The notes under the pieces are model-generated. The model searched no databases. It saw only the letters and a list, made by a program, of their open reading frames with translations, and was not told where the DNA came from. A stretch of DNA of 64,000 nucleotides from Rhizophlyctis rosea (Eukaryota > Chytridiomycota > Chytridiomycetes > Rhizophlyctidales > Rhizophlyctidaceae): contig JADGJC010000062.1 in the NCBI GenBank assembly GCA_027596075.1, positions 103,576-167,575 on the forward strand. Direction: 5' to 3'. Each line of letters begins with the position of its first letter. Positions within the stretch are counted from its first letter, which is position 1. Made by a program: the position numbers and the translations under genes. This document shows, one piece after another, positions 1,842 through 60,661 of this stretch.

Positions 1842-3548
1842 TCAATACCGATGATCCTCATCAACCTCCATCGAATCCCCCCCTTGCGGCGTCCCACCCC
1901 CCTGCTGCTGCTGCCCCCCATTCCCACCCTGCCAATTCCCACTCGGAGAATTCGACCCCGTCGAACTCGCCCCCGACGGACCAAGACCCTCCAACAACCT
2001 CCGTCCATAATCCGTATCCGGTGTCCAGTTGCTGTGCGCAAGGAACATGGGCGGCGGCAGTTGTTGCGGCGATTGTTGTTGGCGGGATGATGTTGGGTCG
2101 GGGAGTTGTGGTAGGTGGTGTGATTGTGCGTGTGGGGAGGGTGAGTGGGAGGAGTGGTCGTTGCGGTGGGGGATGTTGTGGTGGATGTTGGGTGGGAGGG
2201 GGAGGATGTATTCCGCTCGTTCGCCTCGGCCCGTGGATCCACCGCCGACGCCCATGCCGGATCCGGACCCGCCTGACCCACCGGGAGAATCGATGGGAAG
2301 ACTGTGCACGCTCGGAGTCCGTCCGCCCAATGGTCTCCTCAAACTTCCTGATCCGGAAGGGAAGTCCATGGGCGTGCTTTGCACACTTGGTGAACGGTGG
2401 ACCCGCCGTTGCTGATTCAGGGCAGGAGACCCGGCGAAACCTTGATCGTTCATACCGTACCTCCGCCCCATCGGCTCCCCACCCCCAATCCCACCCAAAT
2501 CCTCATCCATCCGATCGTTCCCACCATCCATGTTATGCCCACTGTTGAAACTCCTCACACTCCTCGAGTCGTCGCTGTACTTGCTATAGATGCTTACTCC
2601 GCTATCGTGGCTGAACCTCACATCCGGATGCTCAAAGCTGGTAGTAGAATACCGCTGCGATTCCGCAAGCGACAGTCCAGATACGCTGCCGACATCGTCG
2701 AAACCGGCCCCACTGTATGACGAGCTGATAGACGCGTTGCCACGGGTTCGTCGCTGTTTCGTCCCCTTTGTATATCCCGGCGCCCCAGCGCCACTTCCAC
2801 CACTTCCCGTGCTGCGGATGCTCGCCGTGTCGCCCGTCCGTAAGCTGGACGTGCTGCTCGCTGCGCCGTCAGGCATGAATTCTGGGTAGATGTCCTTCTC
2901 GACGATAATGTCCCCAAGACCTTGCACCATGGCCGGGCTGACCAGCAAATCATTGTTCAGGTCGTCTCGCGTGTAGTAACTGACCAAATGCTGCTTTCTT
3001 CCGTCTGATGTTGTGATGGAGATGGCCTTTTTGGTCAGGCCGTGCTCTTTGATGACGTACTCGATGGTGGGGGGTGCAGCGGGGTTGGTGGAGACGATAG
3101 GGGCACCGTTGGAATCGAGGCGGCGACGGGGTTCGACCTCACGGTAAATGAGGAAGGAGCCGTTTATGCGGGAAGGAGACCAGTGTTTTCCATCAGTCCA
3201 TCTGTCGTCATAAATGTGGGGTATACAATGAATATATATTAATGGAAGGTTGATCAGTATTATGTAATCAGATCGCAGTCCCATGGCAAACTTGAACAGG
3301 TTGAAGAAGTTGCCAATGGAATGGGAGAACAAATTCCACGATGGCTCGCAAACATATAGAAGGGAAACATACCGTTTGATGCCACTCTCCTCTTCATCCC
3401 ACACAAACACAGCACCCGATTTGACGTAGGCCAATCTTTCACTTTCAGCTAACCGGCGCTGAACGCGCTTGATACGGCCCAAGCGGCAGGCCTCGAAAAG
3501 GAGGAGTGCGTCTGCTGGGGAGGTGACGTAGCCGTGGAAGGTCTCCAT
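1842..3548 (-). CDS. WOPR-domain (Gti1/Pac2 family) transcription factor
   Basis: This is a DNA-binding regulator of the Gti1/Pac2/Wor1/Ryp1/Sge1 family, which controls morphological switching and virulence programmes in other fungi. Two exons are inferred: 3373-3548 and 1842-3201, with a 171-base intron at 3202-3372 (GTATGT...ACAG) whose removal joins GIKR to WTDGKHW. The intron is a multiple of three and has no stop, so the unspliced frame also stays open. The spliced protein is about 511 aa. WOPRa occupies residues 1-85, beginning TFHGYVTSPADALLLFEACR and ending HWSPSRINGSFLIYRE. WOPRb lies around residues 110-160 (SDGRKQHLVSYYTRDDL). The remainder is low complexity, rich in Ser, Gly, Pro, His and Gln, as is usual in the family. 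ATG at 3548 starts the domain almost immediately, the typical arrangement. Confidence 0.93.
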   Translation of the reverse strand: METFHGYVTSPADALLLFEACRLGRIKRVQRRLAESERLAYVKSGAVFVWDEEESGIKRYVSLLYVCEPSWNLFSHSIGNFFNLFKFAMGLRSDYIILINLPLIYIHCIPHIYDDRWTDGKHWSPSRINGSFLIYREVEPRRRLDSNGAPIVSTNPAAPPTIEYVIKEHGLTKKAISITTSDGRKQHLVSYYTRDDLNNDLLVSPAMVQGLGDIIVEKDIYPEFMPDGAASSTSSLRTGDTASIRSTGSGGSGAGAPGYTKGTKQRRTRGNASISSSYSGAGFDDVGSVSGLSLAESQRYSTTSFEHPDVRFSHDSGVSIYSKYSDDSRSVRSFNSGHNMDGGNDRMDEDLGGIGGGEPMGRRYGMNDQGFAGSPALNQQRRVHRSPSVQSTPMDFPSGSGSLRRPLGGRTPSVHSLPIDSPGGSGGSGSGMGVGGGSTGRGERAEYILPLPPNIHHNIPHRNDHSSHSPSPHAQSHHLPQLPDPTSSRQQQSPQQLPPPMFLAHSNWTPDTDYGRRLLEGLGPSGASSTGSNSPSGNWQGGNGGQQQQGGGTPQGGDSMEVDEDHRY

Positions 3549-6210
3549 GTTGTTATGATATGTGAGATATATGAGTTCTAGAGTATGTAGGGTCTGACAA
3601 GCTCTAGCGGCCGCAAAGGCGGCGGGGGAAGGATAGGGATTGGGTAAGTGCGCGGTGTGCGATTATGTTTTCGTTGTTATTGCGCGATGATGGTTGTAGA
3701 ACCTGGCAATACTGAATAAAAATGAGTTTCTATGTGTTCCGATGATGACCCAAGTCAGTGCTCCGTCTTCTCCCACTACAGCCCTTTATGACAATACGCC
3801 TTGCCCGCCGTATTCCCGATCACGGCGACCGACATTCTGATGCCGACATATGAAGTGCTTAAGCCCCGACACCCCTCGTACGAACAGGGCGACACTTACG
3901 GACTGAGAACATAACATGCAAAATAGTATGGCACCAAGTAGGAGAGTGTCAGTGATTAGATGACCTTCGTCGTGCGTGGCACAAGGTGATGGACGTGTGT
4001 AATGTTATGTGAGTGTGAGATTGACCTGTGGGAATGCGGATGTTGAGATGACCGTAATGGTAAGTAATCGTGCTATGGGAAGTGAGTAATAATTTCCTGG
4101 CAGGCAGTGTGTACCCCACTCGGACCCGTCGCTTTCCCACGCCATAGGATGATAGTAACAATGAATACGATCAATAGCCAATAACCATAATCAGAGGTCA
4201 TCAACGGCTGAAGAGGCTTGGACACCTCCGTCGACCAATGATAAATAATCACTGGTCACTCACTCACAGGTGAAAGGGGGTTGTTATGCCCACCCAACAC
4301 TGCACATCCGTATGGCTATATACACTCAATAGAACAACACTATGTCTGGTGCTAGTGACTAACCTGATGGAGACAGACTGACGAAGTGGGAGATGCCAGT
4401 TGACTATGTGCGGGTGTAGTTATGCTGAGGGGGGACTATCAAGGTCAGAGTTGGTAACAACTGGAATGTATAAATTGGAAAGGACGATGGACAGTGAGAA
4501 AGACGGTTGGTAAAATTGACCCAACGTGAGCGCAACTAGCACACACAAAAACATACCTTGGGTATATGCGACAACCAGTTGTAGAAAAAGGCGGTTGGCG
4601 ACGTTGTTGAGTTATTAGCGACTTGTCAAGAACAGTGTCAAGTGGGCACACGTTCCCCTCCTTTACTCAAAATTCCCTTCTTTTTGTTTGAGTGCAAAAG
4701 GTTTTCAACCACAGCAGCAACTTCCCATGGTCGTCGTAACAGCCCATCAAGCAATGCAGTTGGGGGCCTTTCTTGGCTTCAGAGGAAGGGCGGGTTGCGG
4801 AGCAAAATGTGTGTTCGAATGCCTAGAAGTGGTACAAACTGACCCACGGATTGAGTCCGATTGACTCCTCCTTCGATTTTTCTACTGCTGGGTGTGAGGC
4901 TAGCCCTACTGTGACACTGTTGTGCGACGTGTGTAACTGTTCTACTGTTCGCAATTGGCGCCACTCGAGGTCGGGTGCACGAGGGTCCACTGTTCTAATC
5001 CCCACGACTTACAGAGAGGATGCGGATGGTGGACGATTAGCACCTTATGAATATGCGGATTGAGTTGATGTGCTACTACTAGTACATGCTATTGAACAAC
5101 ACGCCTAGATGATCTGATGAAATGATTGCTATTGAAGTGCGTCCCAATGGGCCATTGAATCAGGGTTGTCTCCCCCTGTCTCCCATTGTCATGCCCTAAA
5201 ACCTATCGGAAGTCACGCACATCCGATCATCCCTCATTCCCAAACCCATTGATGACTGGCTATGTGAATGAACTGTGATCGAGCCGCCATCTCGGGTCAA
5301 CTACGAACAACTTCCCCAACATTTGCTCAACTCTGATTGGACGTGGAACATCTGGGATTTGCCAAGACGCTCGTGTCACCGTAGGACAATCGTATCACAG
5401 TTCTCCAAAAACTCACTCCTGCGCGTCATGCCCATAAATTGTGCCAAACCATCCGACCGACCGGATTGGCCTCACGCACAAGCCCCAAGGGCTGGACTTT
5501 CCAGAAGGGCAACGCAAATGTATCCCATGGGCAACGGGCCTGCGTCTGGGCCCTTGAGCACGAGGGTCCCAATCCCCAACAAACTCAAACCTTGATCGCA
5601 TGTGTACAGCCGACGACGCTTTTTACATTTCTTGTCTTTTAGATTCTGCATTCATTACGCTTTCCATTGGTGATCGAGACATATCAGGGATGAGTATCCC
5701 TATGGCTTTTGTATCAATTGATCCTTGGAAAGTTTAATGAACAGGCCAATGCCGGTAAACAAACGGTAAAGGAGAGGGACTTTGAATGTTTTCGCAGTTA
5801 CGCATCCGTGTCTCATTGGGATCTAACCGGCCTTGTAGTGCCAATGGTCAAGAATGTTCCGTCTAGCTCCTTCAAATCTTCAGCCTCGTTTTGACGTGGA
5901 GCAGCGACAGTTTTGGTACTCCTTGTAGGCAAACGATACAAACGATGGGGCCGCATCTCGTTGGCCCTGAGCGTGTTTAACTCCGCATTGGAAGCAGAAG
6001 TAGGGAAAGCATCGAGGTAACGGGGTCTTGTCGCGCTCAGGTCATTCCGTAGTCCTTGACCGGTTCTGATGAGCATCGAGGTTTGGTTTCATCATCAGTC
6101 AGTATGCAGCATTGTATCCATCCAGTCACCTTCCCCGAAAACAGATGAGCAGAAAGAACTCTATTGCATATCTTAAATACAAGATAGCATCAAAAACAAT
6201 CCCCCGAATC
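3549..6210. other. Intergenic, no supported gene
   Basis: About 2.6 kb holding the promoter of the WOPR gene and otherwise no recognisable gene. An 87-codon minus-strand frame at 5813-6076 has a plausible hydrophilic composition, but no motif and no partner exon. No RNA gene was recognised. Long regulatory regions are common upstream of WOPR genes in other fungi, but no specific site can be read here. Confidence 0.45.
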
Positions 6211-18400: not shown

Positions 18401-21400
18401 CGGGTGTTGGAGCCGGTGACGCCGTTACAGTACTTGTCCCAGCTGGAGCCGTCTTTTCGGAACATTTGGCTGACGTCCTTCCCCAACACACTGTCCTGCC
18501 AGAAGTCGTCCGAGTTGAACCCGTATCCTTGGTCTTTGTGCCATTGGATGAGAGAGGATGGAATGACGTAGTAGTTTCCGTACATGAACACTGTAGCTTT
18601 GTTGCCGACGTGGTTCAGAGAGGAAATCTCACCGGGTGACAGTTGGGGCTTTCGCGGGCAAAGAATCTGTCCGATACCGATGATGAAGAAGAGAATGCAA
18701 CCGTTCATGAGCAGAATGATGACACAGAGAGTGAACTTCTCCCTCCACGCCATCTGACGGTCGCGTTGCTTCATCTTCCCACACCATGACAGGAAGAAGA
18801 ACGGAATCCACCAGGTAGTGAACCATGTGCAAGTAAGCCAGCGGCACCGAGACCCAGTCATCTTCTTCTTCGGCTTCACCGGTTCGACCTTCGCCTCGAT
18901 AATGTGATGAGACGGCCCCTTCTCATCCTTAGACGTCCCACGAGCACCCGAACCCGACTCAAGATCCCTCAACGGCACATCCCCGGTCAAAGCACCAACG
19001 TGCTCAACGCGTGTCGGAGGCGTAGCTTCAAACTCCGATTCATAATGACTAGCACCATCGTCATAAGCAGATGCCGAGTCGTCCCCTCCAGACGTGTAAT
19101 CCCACCGTCCATGTGGCCGTGCACTATCAGTAGACATCTTCCCCATCATGGATGCAGACTCCGACACCAACAACGTCCCTTGCGTAACCCTAAGCTGCTC
19201 CTCCAAACCCCTCCACACCTTCTCCGACAGGTGAATACGGCTCTTGCCAACAACAGCATCCTTCGTGGTCCATCCTCGACCGTAGCAAATGTTCGTGCAT
19301 TGCGTCTTGGCGTCACCGTAAGACTTGTCTCCAAGCACGGGGCTGAAACGCCGGATGAACTCGTCATGGCCGAAGGACTCCGTGTACCATCCTGCAGCGT
19401 TGGCCGCCAATGCCGGCAACTCATAATCCGTTACTTGGCGACGGATCAAAGCCGGGTCGACTTTGCCGCCGGTCTCGTGGGATGATTGGAGGTGTGCAAC
19501 AAACCATGTTTGTGTTTCGGTGAGGGTTTCGAAAAGCTCGCCGATGGATGTGCGGAACTGTAAGATGACAGGTTAAGCTTCTTGCTATGGTATTCCGCAC
19601 TACATTGCCCAGGGACGCCTACCTGATGACTCAAAGTTTCGGCAGGATCCAAGTTCACATCATCATCCTCACCACCATTTTCTCCCTTCTTACTCTTACG
19701 CCTCTTCAAACTCGGGTTCCGACTCAAGCTCCGTGCAGCCACCAACGTCGACCCATCCGCCTTGCTAGTCTGCGTGGCAACCAACTTATCCGAGAACATA
19801 CCCCGCAAGAACGGGTTCACCGTACCAGGGTGCTCTGGGTTACCCCTAATAAGAGACACAAAGTCCGATTGCAAAATATCGGAAGCGTGTTGTGAGAAAC
19901 CGTGAGTGGAGTATTCAACCACGCCGGCGTAGTGGTGAATTCCGAAAGCGGACATTTTGGACCGGGATGACGCGGATGCGACGAACGCGGCGGAGTCGGA
20001 GTTTGCTGCTACGATCTTTTCGGCGATTCTGGTGTCTTTACTTCCACGCGCGATTTCCTTCTCCATGACGGGCAAGACCCCAGAACGAGCGGACGAAAGG
20101 ACGTCCAACACCTCCCGGTTGCTTCCAATCCCGACATTCGCAACTTCAACACCATCGCCCAACAACGCACTCCTGCCAGCTGCAAACACCCTATCGCACA
20201 TAAGCGCGTGCACCCGCTCATTCTCGTAATTCACCAACAAGCGATAGAAATCTTGTCCCTGCGTGTCCCTCCCGGTAAACGCGGGCACGTCCAGCACAGC
20301 AATGAAGTTGCTCCATGAGGCATCATCTTCCTGGCACACTTTGTTGTTGATTTGTTCAATGATCCAGCTGAAGAGGACGGAGTAGAGGGAGCGAGCAAAG
20401 GCGTCACGTTGTTGGGATGCGGCTTCAGCGTCGAGGAATGTGGATACAAAGTCGCGGCCGACCTTTTTGGCGCGGTAGGTCAAAACGCCTGTTCACAATT
20501 GCATTGATTAGTTATCAAATGAGACTTGGCTGAAGGGCAAGAGATAAATACCTTCAACGCTAGCCGGGTGCACACCCAACAACTCCGCCACCAACTCCAA
20601 CTGCGCATAATTCCTAACACTACACGCCTCCTGACTGTTATTCGGCGCATCCTGGAACGTCACATTCCCCAAATGTAAGATCGCAGCCAAAATCTGCCAC
20701 AGCTGCGCCTGCTGTCTCCGTCCAATACCCAAGGCCTTCAAACTCTCGCGAATGGTGTCCAAGTTCGTTTGGTGGTGTGGGTCGACGGTGATAACGGGGA
20801 GTTTGGAGGAGTGGGAGTTGAGGTAGTGGAAGTGGGCGTGGTCGGAGAGGTGTAAGTGGAGCTTTTCGTCATGGGTTGCGCCGGCTAGGAGGTAGTAGAA
20901 GATGTGGAATGATCGACCGCCGTCTTCTAATCCTGCTACCCGTCCTTTTTCTAGTAGGTAATCGATGACTTTTACGCCTACCATTCGCCCGTCGTTAGCG
21001 AATTGGTATTCCATGTACGATGTAAAGCATTTTGCGTCTTTGTCGAAGGGTGTGACGGCATTGCCAAAGGCGGACAGGACTGAGGGGAGTTTGAGGATGG
21101 CGGAGTGGAGTTTGGATTTCTTGGAGGAGATGTTTGGTTTGGAAAGGGTTGTGAGATGGCGGGGAATCAGATGTGTTGTTGGGTGGGCGGAGGTGCCGTT
21201 TCTAAAAATGCAACTATGTCAGCTTCCCCTTTCATCTACAGATTTCCCTGCATCTTGCACTTCAGTCACTACCCCACACCGTTCCAGCTTCGCTCCCTCA
21301 CCAAGCCACCAATCGACAATGCTTCGCTACGCGAAGTCCTAGCGCTTCGCACAAACCCATCCTGGCGTTGCTCTCTCACCCAACCACCAAATCAACAATG

Positions 21401-49828: not shown

Positions 49829-50422
49829 ATGAAGCTCCCCATTGCAGCTACACTCGGGACATTGTTATATATCTTGTCTCTCGTCGAGTGTGCACCGGCA
49901 CCAGTCGCTCGACCCGACGTTTCGCTTTCTCTTGGTGACGCTCCACCAGCCTCACCGGCCTCACCACCTGCCCTGTCCCTTGACGGTACTCCACCTGCTC
50001 CACCCTCCACACCACCCACCGTCATCCAATCCACCTCCAACACATCATCCACAACAACCACAGTCGGCTACGACACAACCTACGACAATCCCAACCTCTC
50101 CACCACTTCTATTGCTTGTTCCGACGGCAAGAACGGCCTTTCAACAAAAGGGTACAAAACTCTCGGTTCCATCCCCAAATTCCCGAACGTTGCGGCGGCA
50201 TTTACGATTGAGGGGTGGAACAGCCCGCAGTGTGGGAAGTGTTATCGGTTGAAGTATGAGGGGAGGACGGTGTATGTTACTGCGGTTGATGTTGCTAAGG
50301 AGGGGTTTGTGATTAGTATGGGGGTTATGGATGCGTTGACGGGGGGGAGGGCGGTGGAGGCGGGGAGGGTTAGTGTGGAGTGGAAGCAGGTTGGGATTTA
50401 TAATTGTGGGTTTGCGAAGTGA
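49829..50422 (+). CDS. Cerato-platanin family secreted protein
   Basis: Cerato-platanins are small secreted beta-barrel proteins that bind chitin oligomers and act on fungal walls or host surfaces. This is a single exon of 197 aa. Residues 1-22 are a signal peptide (MKLPIAATLGTLLYILSLVE). An unusual Pro/Ala/Ser/Thr-rich stretch of about 60 residues precedes the domain. The domain (about residues 75-197) has the family motifs TVGYDTTYDNPNLSTTSIAC, SDGKNGLSTKGYKTLGSIP, GWNSPQCGKCYRLKYEGRTV and MDALTGGRAVEAGRVSVEW, plus the terminal YNCG. All four conserved cysteines, which form two disulphides, are present. The long low-complexity linker is atypical; most members go almost directly from signal peptide to domain. 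It lies between COX6 and the receptor gene, which is convergent. Confidence 0.95.
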   Translation: MKLPIAATLGTLLYILSLVECAPAPVARPDVSLSLGDAPPASPASPPALSLDGTPPAPPSTPPTVIQSTSNTSSTTTTVGYDTTYDNPNLSTTSIACSDGKNGLSTKGYKTLGSIPKFPNVAAAFTIEGWNSPQCGKCYRLKYEGRTVYVTAVDVAKEGFVISMGVMDALTGGRAVEAGRVSVEWKQVGIYNCGFAK

Positions 50423-50685: not shown

Positions 50686-53600
50686 TCAAGGATTGCTATT
50701 GACGGACCCAAATGACGCCGTTCCCCTTAAGAGCCCCGGCTTAGTCCCCACTCCGGACCCATTCATGCCCCTCGTCTCCAACATCCTCAAAAACTCCACA
50801 TCAGACTGCCGCCTCCCCTTCTGCACCTCCGAAGCCCTTTCCCCACCACCACCGCTTTTCTCACCCTCCTTAGGCCTCAAACTCGCCAACTTGAACGCGG
50901 CAGCCTCCAAAATAGTCTTGAATGCCTGCATTCGCTCGATACTCGCAAACTCGATCGTCATAACCTCCTTCCCGCTCTTTCCACCCGGTCGGAATACTAC
51001 CCGGGCAGCTTCGGATTTTTCCTGTGCGGTGCCCGTGGGGGCGTACATGAGGTTTGGGAAACGGTAAGTTGCTTGCGAGAGTTTGAAGGCTTTTTGGATG
51101 CGGGATGTTGTGAGGGATTGGAAGTGGAGGAGGAGGTCCATGTCGGGGATTGCGAGGAGGGTTGTTGTGAGTGGGGGTGATGATTGTGTTGGGGGTGTGG
51201 TGGTGCTTGTGTGAGGGGTTTGGGAGGAGGAAGAAGTGTCGTCGGAGATTTTTACGATGTAGACGAAGCATGTGAAACCTATTTCGTCGCCTTCCCATTC
51301 TGTGGAGAGGTGGATGCGTTTGGGGTTTGCCATTTGGGATAGGGTGGTTGTTATGTAGGCTTTTTGGTCGAAGATTGCTTCGCTGTGGAGGGTTATGTTA
51401 GGCTATGTATAGGGCGTAAGGTTTCCTGCGATGTGAACGTTATGCCGAACTTACATGAGGCGCGGGGCATGAATGACGACAGCTAGCATGATGGCACAAC
51501 CGATGTAGATGAGGCATTGTATGAATTGCGCCATTTGTTGGGTGGACGGATCTCGTCGGTCGTGGATGGCGATGGGGAGGCCGAAGACGGTCACAATTAT
51601 CACCAGTAGGACGGCAGTGACGACTGATCGGGATTGTCCGTGAGGTCGCTCCACGTTTCGGGTTAAAAAGGCAAAGTAAAGACAGACGAGCATTAGGATG
51701 CCGGTGATGATGAGACCGCTGCCTTCGAATATTCCGGCAACATCTTCCATTCCGGGTTTTGTGGTGCAGGTGCGCAGTTGGGAGCCGTCATCTAGGATGT
51801 TGACAACGGGTCTTGGACCCGCAATCGCTGTGCTGAGATGTAATTCATCAGCTTCTTCCACGTCATGAAGGACAAAGCACATGCTCAGAATAAAACTTAC
51901 AGTATTCCCACGTATATGATCTCGGCAACCCCGACCACTATGGAACCAATGATGAGTTTGCTATTCGTGAGTGAAGCGCTGACTTTGCTAGAAACATGTA
52001 CGAAATGCACGCGGTACATTTGGAAACTTAACATGCTGGTGTGTCCGTTTGGGAAAGAATGCGTGAGTATACTGCAAGGATGACAGGATGGACTTCTTCC
52101 ATTTATGTAAACTATACATACCTGAAAATGACACCAGCGCCGACGGGGGTGGGGAACAGCCGAGAATAACAAAGACCCCGCGTTGGCACGGCCATGTTGA
52201 AAAGTCCACCCATCACCACTACAAAGCATCCCGCCAGAATCACATAGGCGCACGAGGCCGGCATGACTTTGATTGCCGGACGGGCACGGTACATATGGAT
52301 GAGAATCCCAATCGCCGTAATGATAAAACACGCAATAACGATCATCGCCACTGCAATGATCCCTTTCCCGGACCTCAAGTCAACAACGACTTGGTATTCC
52401 GCCTCGCTACAGTCCTTGTTATAGACGTTCATCCATCCCGGATCGCATATGCAGGCGGTTTGGGGATCTTGGAAGGGGAGATCGGTTTGGCATTGGCCGT
52501 GTTTGCAGCCTTTTGGAGAGCCTTTTGGCCAGTCGCAAAGGGAGTCGCCTGAGAGTGGGGAGCCTTTAAAAGTCACTTGGTTAAGTATTTCGTTGGCGCC
52601 GTCTAGGAGGCCGTCTGTCAGGGGAGCGAAGTTGGATTGTGTTGCGAGCGTCTGTGTGTGGGTGGCGGGGGTTTAGGGGTTGTTGAACATCTCCGATTGA
52701 TACTCAAACGGTTTGAAAAGAGATGTCTGCCCACCATGAAAGAATGACTGACCTGGCCCCGATTAAGAGTCCACCACAGATATTGCACCGTTCCCCGTGC
52801 AATCGTTTCCGAGTTTGTAAACGTGTCATTTCGAAGAACTGGAATTGAATGCGCTTTCAACATTCTTATCATCCGAAGGGGCTAAGGACCACGCTTACTT
52901 TACTTACCATAGTATGTCTTGGCGGTCAAGGGGTAAGCTCCAGGATTGGGACTGTCTATATCCACTGCCCAATCGTCACCTGCACTTTGACTGGCCTACA
53001 CTATGGATCGTAAGCATTGGTCGAGAAATACTGGAAGGTGCATTCATATTGGCTCGTGTACCTGTACGGACGCAATCGAAGGCGCGACGGCGTCACCGTT
53101 GCGGTTGACCACAGCAGCTGTGTCAAATGACGAGCTCAGTGCGGCGTCCTCCCCGCTCATGAAGGTGATACTCCAGGGGATGCTGGAAAGTAAGATCTCC
53201 GTCGCTGCTCTGGAGGACGCATTCAAAGCGCTCGTGGCTGTTGTCACTTCTTGGACGGTTGATACGCCTGCTGGAACGGTCGGGTCGAACGCAGTCAGTG
53301 CACGCATGAAGTTCCTGCTTGTGCCGCTGCCGCCTGTGCGGAGGACTAGCTGGATTTTGGGACTTTGGTTTGTGGGGAAGGTGTTTTGGAGGGTCGGGTT
53401 TCGGTATGAGAGGGATGGGTCGTTCCAGGATGTTATTCTGCCCATGAAGATGTCGACGATGTTTTGGCGGGTGAGGAGGAGGGGTGGTGTTAGGCGGGGG
53501 ATGTTGTAGCCGATTACGATGCATCTGTCAGGTAGTCGTGTTTGGATTAGAATGTTGCTTTGATGGGTTGGTATGGTGGGGCTCTTACCCTTGTACTGCG

Positions 53601-54056
53601 GGTATGACGACCAAATTCAGGTTTGCGATGTCATCACTTGTTGGGATGAGATCGGAACCAATGAAGGAGTACGTTTTTGCGCCATTTCGGATGGTATTGA
53701 GACCCACTGTACTGCTTTGCATTTCGTAGGACACGGATGGGATTGTCCATCCTGGCCAAGTCTTTTTAGCTAAGGGAGATGCAGAACATCCGGAGATAAG
53801 ACCTACCTGGTAAGGCGCAGTATGTCGCAGTGAAGTTTGCCGCCCATGACATGTAGACATTTCCCGGAAATGAAGCCCCGATGCCTCGTATACTCTTTGA
53901 CATTTCCGCAGCAGCGCCCGTAGCGGATTCAGCGATAATGTCGCTGACAGAGTCGACCATACCAACATCGTTGGCCAATGCTGGTCTGATAGTATTCAGT
54001 ATGCGTAGGCATATGAGTCCGGCTGCCAGCCAATTGACTCTATTGGAAGTCACCAT
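50686..54056 (-). CDS. PstS-like phosphate-binding ectodomain, EGF-like segment and class C seven-helix receptor
   Basis: Nine exons are inferred: 53807-54056, 53589-53769, 53062-53524, 52908-52995, 52753-52838, 52122-52651, 51901-52071, 51455-51832 and 50686-51382; all phases agree and give 947 aa. After a signal peptide, residues 50-380 resemble bacterial PstS phosphate-binding proteins: GIGASFPGNVYMSWA, YSFIGSDLIPTSDD, GYNIPRLTPPLLLTRQNIVD, IFMGRITSWNDPSL, the anion loop TGGSGTSRNF, and DSPNPGAYPLTAKTYYVLRN. A six-cysteine EGF-like segment follows (CKHGQCQ, CICDPGW). Then come seven helices of the class C (GABA-B-like) type: IIAVAMIVIACFIITAIGIL, KVMPASCAYVILAGCFVVVM and SKLIIGSIVVGVAEIIYVGI, with DPSTQQMAQFIQCL before the last ones. 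The C-terminal 230 residues are cytoplasmic. It probably senses an extracellular anion or small ligand and couples to G proteins; the ligand is inferred only from the PstS resemblance. Confidence 0.9.
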
Positions 54057-59070: not shown

Positions 59071-59770
59071 CTAATCTGATTCGCTGCTCTCCTCACTCTC
59101 ACTAGACTCCTCCTCCTCCTCCTCCCCATCCGTCTCTTCATCTGAACTCTCTTCATTGCTCCTTGACTCCGAATTTGTCTCCTCGCAATCCTCCTCCGCC
59201 CCACCATACCAACCCTGCACATTCCCCATCTTGACCAATATCTTCTCGTACACCATCCGCGTCACCTTCTTCTTCCCTTACAAATAGATCCTGGCCGCCG
59301 CCTCGATGTACTTCTTGTCAGTGTCCGTGATGGTCGCCCACTCTTGTTGGGGCAGCACTTTCTTCTTGATACCATAGTCGAAGAGGGTGACTATGCCGTC
59401 GGAGTGGAGACGTAAAGGAAGTTGCCGTTGGATGCGCCTGAGCCGAACAGGGTTCTCCTCCTTGAATTTGCGGGCAGGTAGAAGTACTTGCGCACCATCT
59501 TGTGAATTTTTTCGTTGATTTGAGACTTACAAAAGAATGAATGAGCAAATGCCGTTGTTCAACCTCATGCTGCATACCTCAGTTTCGCAACCCTTTTACG
59601 AGAATAACCCATAACTCCATCCATCAAGTGACTCCACTCCTTATTCAAGATCCTGCGCTCCGCAGTATTGGTGGCAGTAACGACACATTTGGGAGCATTG
59701 GGGTTGCCCTTCAATAGACTCTTGACGGCCTTCTGCAGCTCATCGTCCTTCAGCCAGCAAGTCAGCCGCT
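59071..59770 (-). pseudogene. Decayed minus-strand gene, C-terminal part with acidic tail
   Basis: Reading from 59770 downwards: WLKDDELQKAVKSLLKGNPN, NKEWSHLMDGVMGYSRKRVA, a possible 60-base intron near 59580-59520, INEKIHKMVRKYFYLPA, then after a small frameshift near 59475 ENPVRLRRIQRQLPLRLHSD, GIVTLFDYGIKKKVLPQQEW and TITDTDKKYIEAAARIYL. A TAA at about 59279 interrupts. The same frame resumes KKVTRMVYEKILVKMGN and ends in a run of Glu and Ser at 59071. It is clearly once-coding but now has a frameshift and a nonsense codon. No family recognised. It may belong with the minus-strand remnant beyond the copia element. Confidence 0.55.
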
Positions 59771-59775
59771 ACCAT

Positions 59776-60661
59776 CCTTAAGTGCTTCCAGGAGTATCAT
59801 CCATGGTTCGAGCGCATCTCCGGCAAACAGATGAAGATCCTACGGTCGGACGGCGGCGGCAAATACAAAGGCAAACTCCTGGACCACCTCCGAGAGCGCG
59901 GTATGGAGACCCAGATCACCCACCCTGACAGTAGTCAACAGAATGGTGTGGCTGAGAGATTCAACAACACCCTCCTCAATCCCGCTCGTTCCATCTTCAT
60001 GGCGACCGGCCTACCTCGGCGTTTCTGGCCTTTTCTTGTGGAAAGCGCCAACTACCGAAACAACCTTTGTCCTCATTCGGCGACTGGCATTACTCCCTAC
60101 AAGCAACTTTATGGAATAAAGCCAGATCTCAGCCACCTGCGTGAGATTGGTTGTGTGGCATACTCATGCACCCCCAAGAAGGGAAGGGACAAGTTGGGCG
60201 GTAGGGCTAAGAAGTGTTATTTGTTGGGGTATGGGCACGGAGATGGGCGGAAGGGGTGGCGCCTGTGGTGTCCGAAACGGGACAAGGTGTTCTGGAGTCG
60301 TGATGTCACGAAGTGGGTTGAGGATGAGGGGATACCTCCAGATTTGCGGGAAGATTATGATGAGTTGGACCCACTGGAGGACCCAGAGAGTGAAGGCGAG
60401 GAGGAGGAGTGGCCTATTGAGAGGATTGTTGATGAACGGGTATTTCATGGGAAACGTCAGTTCAAGGTGAAATGGGTGGGGTATAGGAACTCCACTTGCG
60501 AGGATGCGGAAAACTTGGCGGATACGGAGGGGTTGGAGATTTGGGAGCGTCGCGCAGAGGCGGCGATGGTGGAGGCACTGTCGGCTGCAGTGGGGGCTAA
60601 AGCGTTGAACTACAAACAAGCAATGCGCTGGCGGAAAAGGACGGGTCCCGAGAAGCCATGA
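59776..60661 (+). pseudogene. Copia integrase fragment fused to a chromodomain
   Basis: Catalytic-core fragment of a Ty1/copia integrase: FERISGKQMKILRSDGGGKY (with the second Asp region), THPDSSQQNGVAERFNNTLL (with the catalytic Glu), the family's PHSATGITPYKQLYGIKPDL, and a GKG-like region (KKCYLLGYGHGDGRKGWRLW). About 25 acidic residues later comes a full chromodomain: EWPIERIVDERVFHGKRQFK, VKWVGYRNSTCEDAENLADT, EGLEIWERRAEA. It retains the hydrophobic and aromatic positions of the fold. The frame ends at TGA 60659-60661, just inside the linker to RT; one base less would carry on into RT. The first catalytic Asp and the zinc finger lie in the missing 5' part, so integrase is not functional. 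Confidence 0.85.

Follow-up and report, generated by a model that had tools for sequence, protein, structure and literature searches.

A candidate phosphate-sensing class C receptor with a PstS-type ectodomain in the chytrid Rhizophlyctis rosea

How eukaryotic cells sense extracellular phosphate is poorly understood, and the phosphate-sensing routes of fungi known to us, transceptors and SPX domains, depend on transport or operate intracellularly. A gene at 50686..54056 on the minus strand of a 64,000-nucleotide stretch of DNA from the soil chytrid Rhizophlyctis rosea (contig JADGJC010000062.1, positions 103,576 to 167,575; this whole stretch is the window, and all coordinates below are counted within it) raises the question of whether a fungal G protein-coupled receptor (GPCR) might sense phosphate directly. 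The gene is a single one, and its product unites a predicted PstS fold, in which the phosphate contacts are kept, with a class C domain of the seven-helix family. We consider it probable that this protein is a class C GPCR with a captured bacterial-type PstS domain as its ligand module, and that its signaling is driven by phosphate.

The receptor gene and its two domains

The nine joined exons form a single reading frame from 54056 to 50686, the gene structure being predicted from the genomic sequence and homologs. Intron 1 was set at 55 nt (53806-53752), giving 929 residues, while the nearest alternative junction would give a 37-nt intron and 935 residues; the longer intron was preferred because the NCBI protein for the same gene (P0001, HDV00_010526, Rhizophlyctis rosea) and the spacing in the homolog P0002 both favor it. 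P0001 starts upstream of our model and has no signal-like N-terminus. The features of the gene, all on the minus strand, are as follows.

50686..54056, minus strand: whole receptor gene, nine exons, 929 amino acids
54056-53807, 53751-53589, 53524-53062, 52995-52908, 52838-52753, 52651-52122, 52035-51901, 51832-51455, 51382-50686, minus strand: exons 1 to 9
53973..54056, minus strand: N-terminus, residues 1-28, which by eye resembles a signal peptide, with a basic start, a hydrophobic stretch and ALA|ND
52562..53903, minus strand: PstS-type ectodomain, residues 52-380, exons 1-6
53868..53873, minus strand: putative phosphate contacts S62 and F63 (E. coli T10 and F11)
53711..53713, minus strand: putative contact S97 (E. 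coli S38)
53651..53653, minus strand: putative contact D117 (E. coli D56)
53320..53340, minus strand: RTGGSGT loop with putative contacts R200, S204, G205 and T206 (E. coli R135, S139, G140 and T141); all contacts were placed by alignment and the contact list of PMC10846223
52409..52537, minus strand: EGF-like six-cysteine linker, residues 389-431, by cysteine spacing
51463..52366, minus strand: seven-helix domain of the class C type, near residues 446-695 and encoded by exons 6-8, assigned by PF00003 and a profile match to mGlu1
51901..52035, minus strand: exon 7, spanning helix 3 to helix 4, absent from the NCBI model P0001 and present in the homologs P0002-P0005 and in two paralogs, C471 and C622
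50866..51381, minus strand: intracellular C-terminal region beyond helix 7 (residues 699-870), also conserved in P0002, P0003, C471 and C622 (alignment A6, five rows)

Pfam placed PBP_like_2 (PF12849) at residues 54-333 of the protein (E 1.1e-13, above the cut-off; Pfam positions follow the 935-residue numbering), a search of PDB sequences with the ectodomain found PstS (best E 3.5e-18), and the NCBIfam PstS model TIGR00975 matched over 1 to 313 of its 315 positions (E 4.3e-36). Profile-profile comparison of four receptor ectodomains with nine bacterial PstS-type proteins gave a probability of 100% (E 6.7e-43) over 307 columns at 25% identity, and 74 of 293 aligned residues were identical between E. 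coli PstS and the receptor ectodomain. In the predicted structure, the PstS fold extends over the whole ectodomain, and PstS was the best match among the 50 solved entries listed; the preliminary description of the locus, which had proposed a PstS-like ectodomain fused to class C helices, had staked that proposal on such a structural match. A Venus flytrap of the LIVBP type (ANF_receptor) was not matched by Pfam anywhere in the protein with a threshold of E <= 1.

The helices matched Pfam 7tm_3 (PF00003) at 453-701 (E 7.2e-23, 82.0 bits against a curated cut-off of 33.5) over 8-250 of the 251 profile positions, and the hydropathy plot has six clear peaks, with none at helix 3. Class C receptors characteristically carry one cysteine at the upper end of helix 3 and another in extracellular loop 2, and the corresponding residues (C113 and C196 of the helix-region alignment A7) were invariant in seven of seven rows. 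Among PDB sequences the part of the protein following the ectodomain matched mGlu1 (1.6e-10), and a profile built from the helix regions of seven receptors also matched mGlu1 best among solved structures (4.8e-29), with GABA-B2 at 5.2e-23 and CaSR at 2e-20. The preliminary assignment to class C is therefore borne out by PF00003, but membership in the GABA-B type is unsupported, since mGlu1 matches better than GABA-B2.

The linker had also been called EGF-like, and its six-cysteine spacing agrees with this, but the Pfam EGF domain fell under its cut-off, and we keep the term on cysteine spacing. The nine-cysteine NCD3G linker had no Pfam match in the receptor, the six-cysteine spacing being found there instead; GABA-B receptors are also without NCD3G (PMC5168858). 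GPR158 is a class C receptor that has no Venus flytrap and carries an EGF-like cysteine-rich linker above the helices (PMC8611064). It resembles the present receptor in having such a linker between ectodomain and helices, and differs from it in having a PAS-core ectodomain and in acting via RGS7-Gbeta5. By analogy with this precedent, a missing ANF-type flytrap does not exclude class C membership. For the C-terminal region, a search of PDB sequences returned nothing up to E 10, and none of the Pfam matches listed exceeded its cut-off; a PH domain, guessed by eye, was dropped on these grounds, as Pfam gave only two stray matches, to AFT in one of five rows (E 0.01) and to GnsAB_toxin in one of five rows (E 0.082).

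Conservation of the phosphate pocket

Phosphate is contacted in E. coli PstS by T10, F11, S38, D56, R135, S139, G140 and T141 (PMC10846223), and the aligned receptor residues are S62, F63, S97, D117, R200, S204, G205 and T206. Seven of the eight are identical, the remaining one being a change from Thr to Ser at T10, and this exceeds the overall identity of the E. coli pair (P 3.3e-4). The Ser has a parallel in two Synechococcus PstS proteins, with dissociation constants of 3.3 and 4.3 uM compared with 0.44 uM for the Thr form (PMC10846223), and by this comparison we would guess at a low micromolar affinity in the receptor.

The contacts are also conserved among the receptors. In five receptors that had been picked for an intact pocket (the present gene, C471, P0002, P0004 and P0005), seven of the eight contact columns did not vary, compared with 56 of all 290 columns (P 5e-5); the bacterial rows alone kept six of eight (P 5e-5). 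When these five receptors were combined with 21 bacterial-type rows, 15 of 261 columns were invariant, and six of the 15 were contacts (P 3e-7). The counts omit C622, whose pocket is altered, P0003, which is N-terminally short and has Thr at the S38 position, and the bacterial row L023, a matched piece without the contact loop. Because all eight phosphate contacts are conserved in the present gene, phosphate sensing is the leading reading, and judging from the sequence the receptor probably lets the cell sense phosphate directly.

Relatives, paralogs and origin of the fusion

Both domains were found in four further annotated proteins: P0002, another Rhizophlyctis rosea record marked partial (48% identical), P0003 from Borealophlyctis nickersoniae (36%), P0004 from Polychytrium aggregatum (29%) and P0005 from Spizellomyces sp. 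'palustris' (33% to P0001). The fusion is thus conserved beyond the present gene. The protein searches scored 8000 candidates sharing most words, which makes this chytrid distribution a lower bound; the search that gave P0005 did not relist P0002-P0004.

The Rhizophlyctis rosea genome holds 65 7tm_3 matches in 46 gene-sized clusters, weak matches included, and three PBP_like_2 loci, every one of which has 7tm_3 matches close by in the same orientation: C551 (the present gene), C471 and C622. An exon-wise search of the genome gave no match to the ANF_receptor domain, so that this large class C set shows no detected ANF-type ectodomain. Hence the ectodomain is indeed of a non-LIVBP kind, as first described, but it can hardly be called unusual for that in this lineage, the more so as type II binding-protein ectodomains were published in 2012 and 2016. 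Two SBP_bac_1 matches were also observed in the genome (C175:9848-10267, plus strand; C257:75474-75911, minus strand); the 7tm_3 matches on C257 lie about 9 kb from the SBP_bac_1 match and on the opposite strand, and probably belong to a separate gene.

The earliest of these publications, by Krishnan et al. in 2012 (PMC3251606), lists SPPG_06488 of Spizellomyces punctatus as a Glutamate-family (class C) receptor with PBP_like_2 (PF12849). Compared by listed domains, SPPG_06488 has the same domain pair as the present receptor; in contrast to our report, that paper names the domain only, and the word 'phosphate' occurs 0 times in its main text. The locus tag was not found in the other open-access PMC literature searched. 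In anaerobic gut fungi (2016, PMC5168858), class C receptors were described with SBP type II domains that are invariably similar to sugar-uptake proteins. These share with the present receptor the class C helices and an ectodomain in which a type II binding protein takes the place of ANF, whereas their ectodomain is of the sugar type and that of the present receptor is PstS-type with phosphate contacts.

Of the two paralogs, C471 keeps all eight contacts. Wherever introns could be read, they agree with the present gene in phase and place (five of five in C471, seven of seven in C622); the junctions were read with homology guidance, the first intron lies in a gapped stretch, and C471 is without some of the eight introns. 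A tree built on 29 ectodomain rows separated the seven receptors from 22 bacterial-type rows with branch support of 100/99, and each receptor was 25-33% identical to its most similar bacterial-type row. This tree was midpoint-rooted, has a long branch for P0004, and its bacterial sample is biased, having been drawn by one query (P0006). The simplest reading of these sequences, which falls short of proof, is one old capture of a bacterial PstS.

Besides the receptor gene, four other loci with domain matches were observed in the window. An open reading frame (ORF) adjoining the receptor at 49829-50422 (plus strand) matches Cerato-platanin (PF07249, E 6.4e-41), 1842-3659 (minus strand) matches the Gti1/Pac2 family (PF09729, E 8.9e-40), and 19449-20492 (minus strand) matches the Myosin head (PF00063, E 2.8e-32). 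The fourth, at 59726-60658 (plus strand), is a retroelement-like ORF that matches a retroviral SH3-like domain (PF25597, E 3.1e-22) and a chromodomain (E 4.7e-6) and, weakly and under the cut-off, an integrase.

Phosphate as the probable ligand and the alternatives

Bacterial PstS (E. coli 1qui/2abh; Xanthomonas 8ods) is like the receptor ectodomain in the whole-domain fold, predicted for the latter, and in the eight contact positions; it is a soluble transport protein, in contrast to the receptor fusion, and the receptor differs in its Ser for Thr10 and in the replacement of the GGKGN stretch, a PstS hallmark. Several observations weigh against phosphate signaling through a PstS domain. None of the seven receptors retains the GGKGN stretch found in E. 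coli PstS, although the bacterial rows vary there too. The TIGR00975 score, 124.6 bits, is below the equivalog cut-off of 205, and by this cut-off the ectodomain is, as judged by sequence, a PstS relative not filed as PstS itself. The 13-row alignment given to the fold model held eight bacterial-type rows, so that the match in fold does not count as a line of evidence separate from the sequence. The pocket statistics also weaken with the rows added: adding P0003 to the five leaves five of six usable contact columns invariant (P 8e-4), adding C622 instead leaves four of eight (P 0.02), and taking all seven receptors together leaves two of six (P 0.21). C622 is without three contacts, D56 being replaced by N, R135 by P and S139 by R. 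Significant decay of its pocket was nevertheless not shown, as changes at three of seven contacts compare with changes at ten of the 49 invariant columns elsewhere (Fisher p 0.33), and the D56N mutant of PDB 1ixi is a phosphate complex according to the entry title, so that this one replacement does not necessarily destroy the pocket.

The least credible alternative, which we regard as very improbable, is a gene-prediction artefact in which a bacterial-type PstS gene lies beside an unrelated GPCR gene. The NCBI model and ours do disagree at the start and at exon 7. However, exon 6 is one uninterrupted coding stretch that runs from the end of the PstS domain via the linker and the first two helices into the beginning of helix 3, the introns within the PstS part match in phase in three paralogs, and the same fusion occurs in the four other annotated proteins. 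On this evidence two adjacent genes were rejected, and the preliminary argument from nine in-phase exons to one gene was upheld; bacterial contamination as the source of the PstS part was rejected on the GT-AG introns inside it and its position within the gene.

A more serious, though still unlikely, alternative is that the pocket binds and senses another small oxyanion or a phosphorylated metabolite, such as phosphite, phosphonate, a polyphosphate end or a nucleotide. Its surroundings have changed, as E. coli D137, which adjoins the pocket, is G, P or Y in the six receptors other than C622 and GGKGN is replaced, and the missed equivalog cut-off is in keeping with this. Against it stand the eight of eight contacts kept in the present gene, the E. 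coli D137G protein of PDB 1qui, a phosphate complex according to its title, and Asp56, which selects protonated phosphate over sulfate; moreover, both Ser-10 Synechococcus PstS proteins were stabilized most by phosphate among four phosphorus sources (PMC10846223). We think it rather less likely again that the PstS fold and pocket are only structural, or hold phosphate as a permanent cofactor, with the real signal being something else or a partner protein. CaSR, which carries phosphate at several anion sites (PMC6795806) although calcium is its main agonist, offers a model for this, and the reading frame of C622 is open from the ectodomain to the stop codon, despite the missing pocket; yet pocket conservation in the five receptors (chosen with the pocket intact) about equals that in the bacterial transport rows.

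If phosphate is the ligand, inorganic phosphate would enter the extracellular cleft and be held by the eight residues from S62 to T206. Phosphate binding closes the two-lobed PstS domain, and in the receptor the bound phosphate would likewise close the two lobes of the ectodomain, a closure that would be relayed via the EGF-like linker to the seven-helix domain. The receptor is probably dimeric, by analogy with other class C receptors, and G-protein signaling would be altered after closure, with coupling and output as in class C receptors generally. A bolder extension, which we consider speculative and doubtful, is a chytrid GPCR family with inorganic phosphate as the natural agonist in a transport-grade, bacteria-derived PstS cup, and with C622 as a non-binding partner subunit in R. 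rosea. GABA-B2 is the non-binding partner of GABA-B1, and the role of C622 is a guess by analogy.

No report of a PstS-like or phosphate-binding GPCR was found in searches of the open-access PMC literature, where those looser matches that were listed were judged by title and the start of the abstract. The class C example of phosphate that we found is CaSR, which responds to phosphate directly, phosphate being a non-competitive inhibitor at anion site 1 (R62) (PMC6795806); it is like the present receptor in being class C and unlike it in having a Venus flytrap of another type. Within the literature searched, several points are new: that the ectodomain is identified as PstS by its predicted fold, that its phosphate pocket is conserved, that one member of the paralog set has an altered pocket, that the introns match, and that such receptors occur in several genera of chytrids, the only earlier record, of 2012, naming the domain and no ligand. 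Our analyses suggest that class C receptors can change ligand via a swapped binding module, and the ready-made phosphate pocket on a receptor opens the question of phosphate sensing to one binding assay.
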